From the NCBI RefSeq assembly GCF_000337535.1, contig NZ_AOIP01000015.1, positions 337,112 to 401,111 of the forward strand: a DNA stretch of 64,000 nucleotides. The letters run 5' to 3'. The stretch comes from Natrialba aegyptia DSM 13077 (GTDB lineage: Archaea > Halobacteriota > Halobacteria > Halobacteriales > Natrialbaceae). The notes under the pieces were generated by a model. The model was given only the letters and a program-made list of their open reading frames with translations, searched no databases and was not told the origin of the DNA. Positions 10,209 through 15,571 of the stretch are shown here, one piece after another (the stretch's first letter is position 1; each line of letters starts with the position of its first letter). Both the position numbers and the translations under genes were made by a program.

Positions 10209-11390
10209 ATGGTCGGTGAGCGGGTGACGGAGCGGGTACCGGAGAACTGGCGCTGGGCCGTAACGACGCGCGCAGTCGTCGTCCTCGCGCTGGTTATTGC
10301 GCTGCTCTCAGTTGCCACCGGCATTCTCAGAATCGATCAGGAGGCGGCCGATTTCGGTCCTATCGCACCGCACGTACCGCTCGCCGTCCAGGAAGCCGTC
10401 GGGTTCACCGGTGCACTCACCGGTTTTCTCATGGTCGCCAGCGCGCTCGCGCTCAGGCGCGGCTTGCGCGCCGGCTGGTGGGCGACGCTGCTGTTGTTAC
10501 CGTTGACGGCGATCCAGGGGCTGCTCCAGGCGAGTCAGTACTCGCTGCCGCTCGTCGTGCTGTCGCTGATCTCGATGCCGACGCTCCTCCTCACCCGCAA
10601 GCGCTTCGATCGATCGCTCTCGCTGACGACGACGCAACTCGCCGCGGGCGGCGCGCTCGTCGGCGTCCAGGCCTACGGTACCTTCGGCGCGTACGCGCTC
10701 CGGGACGACTTCGACGGCATCGAGCACCTGCTCGACGCCTTTTACTTCACGCTGATCACCTCGAGCACCGTCGGCTACGGCGACATCGGACCCGAAACCG
10801 CGGAGGCGCAGCTGTTTACCATGTCCGTCGTCGTCCTCGGCGTCGCCAGTTTCGGTATCGCCATCGGGGCGCTCGTCGGGCCCGCGATCCAGGACCGCAT
10901 CTCGAAGACACTCGGAATGATGACCGACTCAGAACTCGAACTCCTAGACGACCACGTCCTCGTCCTCGGCTACGGGGACCTGACCGAACCGATCGTGACC
11001 GAACTCGACGCGACGGGCGAACAGTTTCTCGTCGTCACCGAAAACGAATCAGCGACGGGTTCGCTCACGGACCGCGACATTCGCGTTCTCGATGCGAACC
11101 CGAGCGACGAAGAGCCGCTCCAACGGGCGAAAATAGAAGACGCGCGTGCGGTTCTCGTCGCGACGAACGACGACGCTCGAGACGCCCTGGCGGTTCTCAC
11201 CGCACGCGAACTCCGACCGGACATTCGTATCGTCGCCGCCGCTACCGACCGCGAGAACACGCCGAAACTCGAACGCGCCGGCGCTGACGATGTCATCAGC
11301 CTGGCTGAACTCGGCGGGCACTTGCTGGTCCGCTCGGCGCTCGGGTCGGACGAGTCGCCGGTGGTGTCGCGGTTACTCGAGACGGAATAA
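10209..11390 (+). CDS. Voltage-gated-like K+ channel with RCK (TrkA-N) domain
   Basis: Integral membrane K+ channel, 393 aa. About five hydrophobic helices (first: AVVVLALVIALLSVATGIL) lead to the pore helix and selectivity filter in FYFTLITSSTVGYGDIGP. A last helix (SVVVLGVASFGIAIGALVG) follows, then from about residue 255 a cytoplasmic Rossmann RCK domain (HVLVLGYGDLTEPIVTEL) that gates by nucleotide or ion binding. The strict TVGYGD filter indicates K+ selectivity. Start at ATG 10209, 28 nt after GCTTAACT (10177-10184). A second antiporter and an exchanger follow on the same strand, but with gaps large enough for separate promoters. Confidence 0.9.
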   Translation: MVGERVTERVPENWRWAVTTRAVVVLALVIALLSVATGILRIDQEAADFGPIAPHVPLAVQEAVGFTGALTGFLMVASALALRRGLRAGWWATLLLLPLTAIQGLLQASQYSLPLVVLSLISMPTLLLTRKRFDRSLSLTTTQLAAGGALVGVQAYGTFGAYALRDDFDGIEHLLDAFYFTLITSSTVGYGDIGPETAEAQLFTMSVVVLGVASFGIAIGALVGPAIQDRISKTLGMMTDSELELLDDHVLVLGYGDLTEPIVTELDATGEQFLVVTENESATGSLTDRDIRVLDANPSDEEPLQRAKIEDARAVLVATNDDARDALAVLTARELRPDIRIVAAATDRENTPKLERAGADDVISLAELGGHLLVRSALGSDESPVVSRLLETE

Positions 11391-11757
11391 CGATCCTCGA
11401 TCGTCTTTGCTTGCTGCGTTGGTGGTTACCAGTCGCGTTCGACCGCCAGCATCAACAGAGCCGGTGCTTCCGTGGAGTCAGGCGTCGAACCCCGGACGGC
11501 ATTACGCCGCAAACGGCTGGTCCGAATCCTGTCATCACTCCGCCGAGGGGCTGCTCGTTCTGGCCCCGCAATCGAAGCCGCCGATCACCACATAGCTACC
11601 AGCACGTGAACACCGACCATCCGTAGTTCGTGCTCGCCGCATGCCAGTGTTGCCGCGCTTGCGATCGTATAAGTCCTCGATTATGTCACAGGAACGCCAC
11701 ATATGAAACGAAGGTTCGCGGTCGTGTACGAGCAATGCGACGGCTACCGAGGAAGGT
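11391..11757. other. Intergenic stretch, no gene supported
   Basis: 367 bp between the K+ channel and the antiporter. The only signals I trust are near the right end: GTATAAG at 11668-11674 as a TATA-like box and GAGGA at about 11747-11751 as a ribosome site for the antiporter ATG at 11758. Short frames on both strands here have no family resemblance. Confidence 0.5.
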
Positions 11758-14028
11758 ATGGAAGTAATCGAACCGCTCAGTCACCACGAACTGTTGGTCG
11801 TCATCGCCCAGCTCACCGTCTTGCTCTTCGTCGCACGGCTGCTCGGCGAACTGCTCAGTTCGATCGGCCAACCCGCGGTCGTCGGCGAACTCCTTGCGGG
11901 GGTCCTGCTCGGGCCCTCCCTGTTCGGCCTCGTCGCGCCGGGTGCGTACGAGGCGCTGTTCGTCGTCTCGGAGAGTCAGTTTCACCTGCTCGAGATCGTC
12001 TCCTGGATCGGGCTCATTATGCTGCTGGTCGTTACCGGTCTCGAGACGGATATCGATCTCATTATCGCGAACGGGCGAACGGCGATCGTTCTCTCGCTCG
12101 GCGGGATCATCGTCCCGTTTACGACCGGATTTGCGCTAGGATGGGTCCTGCCGGCCGAGTTCATCGCCGCGCCGGCGCAACGACTCGTGTTCAGCCTGTT
12201 TATCGCCACCGCAATGAGCATCTCGGCGATCCCGGTTATCGCGAAGGTGCTCATCGAACTCGATGTCGTTCGACGCGACGTGGGGCAGTTGATCCTCGCG
12301 GCCGGGATGGTCGACGACACGATCGGGTGGGTCTTGCTGGCCACCGTCGCGGGGCTCGCTCGGACGGGTGTCGTGGATGTCGGGTCGGCCGCAACGACCG
12401 TCCTCTCGGTGCTCGCGTTCCTCGGCATTTCGTTTACGATCGGCCGTCGGGTTGTCGCGGAGACGATCACATGGGTGGATAACGCCGTCGGCAGCGATGC
12501 CGCATTGCTGTCTACGGCGATGCTCTTCGCGCTCGCCGCGGGGGCGATCACGCAGTACATGGGGCTCGAAGCGATTCTCGGCGCGTTCGTCGTCGGCGTG
12601 CTGGTCGGACAGGTAAACCGGTTTGACTACCGGGTTCGACACAGTTTCGAGACGATGACGCTGTCCATCTTCGCGCCGCTTTTCTTCGCTATCGCTGGAC
12701 TGCGGATGGATATCGCGGCGCTGGCCGATCCGACCGTGTTCACCGTCGGGCTCGTCGTCTTCGCCGTCGCCTGCGTCGGAAAGTTCGGCGGGATCCTCGG
12801 CGTTTCCCGCCCGGCCGGGCTCTCGGTCTGGGAGGGGATTACGATCGGCGGCGGAATGAACGCGCGCGGGGCGATGGAGATCATCGTGGCCACGATCGGA
12901 CTCGGGTTGGGGATCCTAACGACGAGCACGTACAGCATCATCGTGGCGGTCGCTATCGGCACGTCGCTGATGGCCCCCGCGATCATGCGCTGGTCGATTC
13001 CGAAGATCGAAATGAGCGAGCAAGAGCGCACGCGGATCGAGCGCGAGCGATACTTACAAGAGAGCTTCGTCAACAACCTCACTCGGGTGCTGCTGCCGAC
13101 GCGGGGCTCCGTCGACACCCAGTACGCCGCCCGACTGGTCAGTTCCCTGTTTCGCGATCGCCAGACGGATATCGATCTCCTCTGTATCGACGAGTTCGCG
13201 TCGTCGAGTCGACGGGGCGGCGGACTCCGCGAGCGCCTCACGCGACTCGGGCGGTTTCTCGCCGGAGGCGGCGTCGGGTCATCGGAGACGGGGCCAAACC
13301 GGCGAGCGGATATCGAGGCGACCGATCGTCGCTTCGCACGGATCGAAGCGCGACTCAGCGAGCAGGCGGGCTCGACGCGGCGTCTCGTCCGAGGACTCGA
13401 CGGGAGCGCGTCGGACACGATCCTCGAGCAGGCAAACGCGGGATACGACTTGGTCGTGCTCGGCGAACGAACGCTCGGGAGCGATTCGGAGACGCCGTTG
13501 TTTAGCAGGACGATCGACCGCGTTATTCAACGGACGCCATGTCCGACCATGGTCGTCAGCACGTCCGATGCCGTGAAACGAACGCCGGCGCTGATAGACG
13601 ACCCGATACGGCGCATTCTCCTGCCGACGGTCGGCACCCGATCCAGTCGCCACGCCGCCGAGGCGGCGTTCGCCATCGCGACCGCCGAGAACGCCCTGGT
13701 CGAAATCGCCCACGTGGTCGCCGATCCGCAACCGAGCGACCGATTCGCCGGCGGAGCCGATCTCTCGGACGCGCGGGACATCGGCGGTCAGATCGTCGAT
13801 CGAGAGGCGGAACTCGGGAGGCAACTCGGTGCGAAGGTCGTAACCACGGTTACGGCGGCGGACAACCCCGGTGCAGCGCTCGTCGCGCTCGCCGATCGGA
13901 ACGACGCCGATCTGATCGTGATGGGATCGAACACGCGTCCAATCTCCCGACGGGCGTTCTTCGGTCCTAACGTCGAGTACGTCGTTACCAACGCCCCCTG
14001 TCCCGTCGCGGTACTGAACTCGGTGTGA
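11758..14028 (+). CDS. Monovalent cation:H+ antiporter (CPA2/Kef type) with two Usp domains
   Basis: Membrane antiporter fused to a cytosolic sensor, 756 aa. Residues about 10-410 are a Na+/H+-exchanger-type membrane domain of about twelve helices (IGQPAVVGELLAGVLLGPSL, the VVTGLETDIDL region, GMVDDTIGWVLL with paired Asp, GGGMNARGAMEIIVATIGLG). Two universal-stress (Usp) repeats follow: RVLLPTRGSVDTQYAARLVS (from about 436) and RRILLPTVGTRSSRHAAEAA (from about 615), the latter ending in DLIVMGSNTRPISRR and a PCPVAVL strand. Usp domains bind nucleotides and probably gate transport. The ATG is preceded by GAGGA. Na+ or K+ specificity cannot be read from sequence. Confidence 0.9.
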   Translation: MEVIEPLSHHELLVVIAQLTVLLFVARLLGELLSSIGQPAVVGELLAGVLLGPSLFGLVAPGAYEALFVVSESQFHLLEIVSWIGLIMLLVVTGLETDIDLIIANGRTAIVLSLGGIIVPFTTGFALGWVLPAEFIAAPAQRLVFSLFIATAMSISAIPVIAKVLIELDVVRRDVGQLILAAGMVDDTIGWVLLATVAGLARTGVVDVGSAATTVLSVLAFLGISFTIGRRVVAETITWVDNAVGSDAALLSTAMLFALAAGAITQYMGLEAILGAFVVGVLVGQVNRFDYRVRHSFETMTLSIFAPLFFAIAGLRMDIAALADPTVFTVGLVVFAVACVGKFGGILGVSRPAGLSVWEGITIGGGMNARGAMEIIVATIGLGLGILTTSTYSIIVAVAIGTSLMAPAIMRWSIPKIEMSEQERTRIERERYLQESFVNNLTRVLLPTRGSVDTQYAARLVSSLFRDRQTDIDLLCIDEFASSSRRGGGLRERLTRLGRFLAGGGVGSSETGPNRRADIEATDRRFARIEARLSEQAGSTRRLVRGLDGSASDTILEQANAGYDLVVLGERTLGSDSETPLFSRTIDRVIQRTPCPTMVVSTSDAVKRTPALIDDPIRRILLPTVGTRSSRHAAEAAFAIATAENALVEIAHVVADPQPSDRFAGGADLSDARDIGGQIVDREAELGRQLGAKVVTTVTAADNPGAALVALADRNDADLIVMGSNTRPISRRAFFGPNVEYVVTNAPCPVAVLNSV

Positions 14029-14210
14029 GGTCCTCCCGGCCGTATTCGGGCGATCGACCGCGTTTCCGGCCGGTCACGGACGACGTGACCGACGATACCG
14101 AGGAAAGAATAGATAGCCGATAGATGGGTGTCAGACAGCAGCAGCTTCCCCGAACGGACAGGTGACGTTGACGGCAGAACACATACGGGCGGTATCGGCG
14201 TATCGAAGAT

Positions 14211-15491
14211 ATGAACGAACGTGGGGTTAGACCGCTCTTTCCCGTCCTCGTTGCGCTGTTGCTCACGGCTCCGTGGCTCACCGTCGCAGCAACCGGACTG
14301 ACACCGGATCTGGTGGCGACGGTCGCCCTCTCGGGAACTTCGATCCTCGGTACGGCGTTCTTGCTCGCCTGGGCCGCTGAAACCGCCGAAAAAGACGTTT
14401 CTCGTTCGTTCGCTATCGCGGTGCTAGCGGTGTTGGCGGTCGCCCCGGAGTACGCGGTCGATGCGCTTTACGCGTGGGAAGCGGGTATCGCTCCGGCGAC
14501 GACCGCCTCGCGGGAAGCGGCCGACCTCGCGGTCGCGAACATGACCGGAGCCAACCGCATCCTCATCGGCATCGGCTGGTCGGGGATCGTGCTGTTTACC
14601 ATCGCCCGGACAAAGAGGGTCCGCGATAGAAACGTCGAACACGTCGACGGCTTTCTCGCCGACCGCGTTCACCTCGATCGCGAACTCTCGCTCGAGATCG
14701 TCTTCCTGTTCGTCGCGACGGTCTACGCCTTCTTTATCCCGATAACGGGATCGATCGCGATACACGACATGGTCGTTCTCGTCGGTCTCTACGGTGTGTA
14801 CATCCTCGCCGCGATCCGGACGCCGCCCACGGAGGAGGAGTACGTCGGCGTTCCGGCCTACCTGCAGTCGTTTCGAAAACCGTACCGGATCTCGACCGTC
14901 ATCGCGCTGTTTGTCTTCTCCGGCGCGACGATCCTCATCGCGGTCGAACCGTTCGCCCACGGCCTGGAAGCACTCGGGCTCCAGTACGGAATCCAGCCGT
15001 TTCTGATGATCTAGTGGGTCGCCCCGCTCGCGAGCGAAACCCCCGAGTTCATCATCGTCGTCTTGCTCGTGACGGAGGCCCGCTCGAGCGCCTCGTTCAA
15101 CGCGTTGATCTCCTCGAAGCTCAACCAGTGGACGCTGCTGATCGGGACGCTCGTGCTCGTCTACAGCGTCTCGCTCGGGAATTACGGTTCATTGCCGTTA
15201 GGGACGCGACAGGCCGGCGAGATCTGGCTCACCGCCGCCCAGAGTTACTTCGCGATTTCGCTGCTCATCGATCTGCAAATCAGCGCCCGCGAAGCGCTCG
15301 CCTTGCTCTCGCTCTTTCTCGTGCAGTTGCACCCGACGTTTCACCGGCACGAGTGGCTCCTCGCGTTCACCGCGCTGTATCTCGTGCTCGGAACGATGCT
15401 GCTCGTCCGTCGGTTCGAGGACGTTCGCAGGGTGATGGAACTCGCCCGCAAGCGGGTACACGGAGCGTCCGTAAAGCGGGAGCGGGAGTAA
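14211..15491 (+). pseudogene. Na+/Ca2+ exchanger (CaCA family) interrupted by an in-frame TAG
   Basis: The full frame from 14211 to 15491 encodes one exchanger of about 426 residues, broken by TAG at 15012-15014. The first half (267 aa) has the alpha-1 repeat (VAPEYAVDALYAWEAG, ANMTGANRILIGIGW) and several helices. Directly after the stop the same frame resumes with WVAPLASETPEFIIVV and NALISSKLNQWTLLIGT, the alpha-2 repeat, and ends in a normal basic tail. In intact relatives I recall a Gln at this site, so a single CAG-to-TAG change would explain it. TTG (15063) or GTG (15069) could restart translation but would lose APLASE. Options: recent pseudogene, two-part protein, readthrough, or sequencing error. 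Confidence 0.8.
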
Positions 15492-15571
15492 CACCGCGGT
15501 GAGCACGATTCGAGCCACCGACCGCGATACGGACGACGCTGACGAACCGCCGACGCTCGAACGGTGGGCCG

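Follow-up and report, generated by a model that had tools for sequence, protein, structure and literature searches.

A cation exchanger gene of Natrialba aegyptia interrupted by one in-frame TAG, a probable nonsense pseudogene

The exchanger gene and its internal stop

The window analyzed, a stretch of 64,000 nucleotides from Natrialba aegyptia DSM 13077 (assembly GCF_000337535.1, contig NZ_AOIP01000015.1), contains a gene for a cation exchanger of the CaCA/CAX type whose reading frame is interrupted by a TAG codon (Table 1). The ATG at 14211, the TAG at 15012–15014 and the TAA at 15489–15491 lie in one common frame, and translation with readthrough yields 426 residues with one internal stop. 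An earlier note on this DNA had described an in-frame TAG with the frame intact on both sides, and this was borne out by the analysis, codon 268 being the sole interruption of the 426-codon frame. When the TAG was read through, the two matches to the Pfam family Na_Ca_ex (PF01699) scored 41.0 and 40.8 bits against a curated cut-off of 24.9, and each part scored alone remained above the same cut-off, with 41.5 and 26.5 bits. With two Na_Ca_ex domains above the curated cut-off, the gene belongs to the CaCA superfamily. The stop was found 39 codons into the second of these domains, and not exactly before the alpha-2 repeat as had been stated in the earlier note.

Table 1. Features of the interrupted exchanger gene (positions are those of the window)
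Feature	Position	Strand	Basis
Gene for a CaCA/CAX-type cation exchanger (probable pseudogene); 426 codons, of which one is an internal TAG	14211..15491	+	Pfam and orthologue comparison
First Na_Ca_ex domain (alpha-1), containing E80, which aligns with E78 of 4kpp	14313..14816	+	Pfam
Second Na_Ca_ex domain (alpha-2), with the TAG inside it	14898..15326	+	Pfam
In-frame TAG, codon 268; Gln in 108/108 homologues	15012..15014	+	Homologue codon comparison
Codon 276, Glu of the SETPE motif, which aligns with E255 of the 4kpp chain	15036..15038	+	Profile alignment
TTG, codon 285; first in-frame ATG/GTG/TTG 3' of the stop, beyond the alpha-2 motif	15063..15065	+	
Codon 289, GAG (Glu); Lys in 80/80 homologues; possible sign of decay	15075..15077	+	Alignment

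A search of solved structures with the family profile (E ≤ 0.01) returned only chain 4kpp_A (E 4.5e-117). PDB entry 4KPP, from Archaeoglobus fulgidus, is taken here to be CAX_Af, the H+/Ca2+ exchanger of that organism. The alignment covered 398 profile positions and included both acidic motif residues, E80 of the window protein being paired with E78 of 4kpp, E276 with E255, and codon 268 with Q247. The 4KPP exchanger is intact; in the window gene, the TAG comes 8 residues ahead of E276, the second of the acidic residues. Its closest relation to 4KPP, together with the presence of both acidic residues of the alpha motifs, places the encoded protein in the CAX type, for which H+/Ca2+ transport is predicted. 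The function of Na+/Ca2+ exchanger proposed in the earlier note was not retained, 4KPP being the closest solved relative and Na+/Ca2+ only the name of the family. CAX_Af has been treated alongside YfkE and VCX1 in a 2023 paper (PMC10227063), according to which the H+/Ca2+ antiporter YfkE no longer transports any Ca2+ once one or the other of its central Glu residues has been mutated.

Codon 268 in the orthologue and in other homologues

The nearest intact orthologue was found in Natrialba asiatica DSM 12278 (L039, contig NZ_AOIO01000034.1; 94% identity). It has in common with the window gene its locus, its neighbours and its length of 426 codons, here uninterrupted, which upholds the claim that the two parts together make one CaCA exchanger of normal length. 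At codon 268 the orthologue reads CAG and the window gene TAG, and at position 289 the orthologue has Lys and the window gene Glu. Comparison was extended to 108 homologues, which are alignment rows and not all distinct genomes, their source loci partly overlapping. Codon 268 encoded Gln in every one of them (104 CAG and 4 CAA), closer outgroups also having CAG, and TAG was seen in the window gene only; one further row, a distant exchanger with 27% identity, had GTG. Alignment with other exchangers, which the earlier note had proposed, thus gave Gln as the residue at the site in 108 out of 108 cases and, with CAG in N. asiatica, agreed with its view that a one-base change from CAG would create the stop. 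Combined, the intact N. asiatica frame at 94% identity and the 108 homologues with Gln indicate that the interruption by TAG in the window is not due to chance.

The exchanger gene was present in 260 of the 392 genomes searched within the order. Among the matches listed in this order-wide search, a stop inside the exchanger was observed in the window's own gene only, and the listed homologues were all continuous at codon 268. Homologues encoding two proteins split at this point, named in the earlier note as a finding that would refute it, were therefore not found among the matches listed. A distant homologue (G204) had been flagged with a TGA; the flag lies outside the aligned frame, and the exchanger frame itself has no internal stop.

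ORFs of N. asiatica were compared with the window, coding frames being picked by their low dN/dS. Across the ~51 genes compared, one internal stop was observed, that of the exchanger, and no frameshift was apparent. These results indicate that the quality of the sequence is good and that the region is not decaying at large, and the restriction of internal stops to the exchanger points to a lone nonsense mutation.

Decay, selection and dispensability

Signs of decay were sought by aligning the window protein with 80 homologues. The window sequence alone departed from all 80 at two columns, Q268, occupied by the stop, and K289. The second departure, K289E, lies 21 codons 3' of the stop in a column that is otherwise invariant, and it runs counter to the earlier statement that no decay was visible in either half. 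Singular departures were absent from 68 of the 81 sequences, among them those of N. asiatica and Saliphagus, and most of those found in other family members were conservative. A further change in the window gene, A48T, was likewise unseen in the other sequences of this alignment.

The dN/dS of the exchanger relative to N. asiatica was 0.22 (0.20 for the part preceding the stop, 0.28 for the part following it), within the range of its neighbours. Amino-acid replacements were in excess on the branch leading to the window (13:11 versus 9:18), though not significantly so (Fisher p 0.16), and stricter polarising of these replacements gave p 0.48. As judged from these values, selection on the window exchanger still looks close to normal. 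A near-normal dN/dS and a non-significant excess of replacements suggest that decay began recently and is seen at few sites, and the nonsense lesion itself is probably young.

The gene is held by two of seven Natrialba genomes. In a close relative (G005), the exchanger and the adjoining antiporter are cleanly absent and the flanking genes are directly joined, ~220 bp standing in place of the ~4.2 kb of the window. The flanks of this genome are ~95–96% identical to those of the window, so that it appears to be closer to the window than N. asiatica is. Five other CaCA genes, all of them without stops, were found in the genome.

The antiporter and the exchanger make up a two-gene module (11390–15571), which is missing as a unit from that relative and whose boundaries lie near the ends of the genes on either side. 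The antiporter gene, which is KefB-like (11758–14028), showed a dS of 0.345 when compared with the corresponding gene of N. asiatica, over twice the value of ~0.15 shown by the exchanger and by most neighbours. This excess suggests that the antiporter allele may have been replaced by recombination.

Origin of the interruption

These observations are best accounted for if a dispensable CAX-like cation exchanger has lost its function through a nonsense mutation, a reading that we regard as very probable on the strength of the comparisons. A C-to-T change at codon 268 would have converted the conserved Gln codon CAG into TAG, and would have arisen in the lineage of the window after its split from N. 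asiatica. Translation would end after 267 residues, with alpha-1 and the intervening helices retained. Lacking the alpha-2 motif and its essential Glu (E276), the product would not make a working exchanger, in line with the loss of Ca2+ transport by YfkE when either central Glu is mutated (PMC10227063). We infer that the product has no activity and that selection was relaxed once the stop had arisen. The stop is absent from functional relatives (Gln in 108/108), a mark by which pseudogenes are recognized. In its lone stop within an otherwise long intact frame, in the absence of the gene from sister lineages and, to judge from K289E, perhaps also in an early relaxation of constraint, the window gene resembles accessory genes of prokaryotes that have become pseudogenes by a nonsense change, and no distinctive difference from these was observed. 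An ordinary nonsense pseudogene is thus placed first and a base error is less likely, recoding and split function finding little support.

An error of base calling or assembly, with CAG as the true codon and the gene intact, is conceivable in a draft assembly of 65 contigs with a TAG one base away from the N. asiatica codon. It is nevertheless improbable, since the absence of any other internal stop from the ~51 genes compared over 64 kb argues that errors are rare, and since two unusual changes 63 bases from each other, the TAG and K289E, are more readily ascribed to real decay than to errors made independently. More doubtful still is decoding of the TAG as an amino acid, by a suppressor tRNA, as pyrrolysine or by virtue of its context, which would yield some full-length exchanger. 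In favour of such decoding, no further stop interrupts the frame before its natural end, and dN/dS past the TAG is 0.28. However, no PylS above the curated cut-off was found in the genome, where two weak matches fell well below it, and none of the 44 tRNAs, detected as matches to the Rfam model RF00005 and typed one by one, had a CUA anticodon; decoding by pyrrolysine or suppressor machinery was rejected on these grounds. TAG terminates 11 of the 35 window genes checked, several of which would gain long in-frame extensions by readthrough, as expected of a normal terminator, and the view of the earlier note that it is not reassigned genome-wide was thereby sustained. The sense codon in homologues argues against a conserved readthrough signal, and readthrough in archaea is established for Sec and Pyl only (reviewed in PMC8211752). 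The suggestion of the earlier note that the stop is read through was consequently set aside, except at trace level: low-level readthrough by unrecognized means, giving a little full-length exchanger beside the 267-residue fragment, seems a shade less credible even than regular decoding.

Half-size CaCA-type proteins are known, and the two parts could in principle be made separately and then assemble. Reinitiation at overlapping stop and start codons operates in Haloferax volcanii (PMC6728339), and a GTG overlaps the stop in the window (TAGTG, 15012–15016). This GTG, however, opens another frame, of 162 aa, and not that of the exchanger, and reinitiation there was rejected for this reason; the overlap and its frame look fortuitous. 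Of the in-frame starts after the stop, the earliest is the TTG at codon 285, and no ATG follows until codon 396. E276 precedes both, and a separate start for the C-terminal part was rejected as well, since it would already be beyond the alpha-2 motif. Since E276 would be contained neither in the 267-aa piece nor in any downstream piece made from a normal start, and none of the listed homologues is split at codon 268, two working halves are very unlikely, and we give this possibility the least credence of all. The proposal of the earlier note that the halves are used separately was abandoned for the same reasons.

With the nonsense pseudogene as the preferred reading, the gene should be labelled in annotation as a probable pseudogene rather than as two proteins, and the finding has little importance beyond that. 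In Natrialba, the accessory exchanger would be missing or broken in two ways, by absence of the module in one lineage and by a nonsense change in another.
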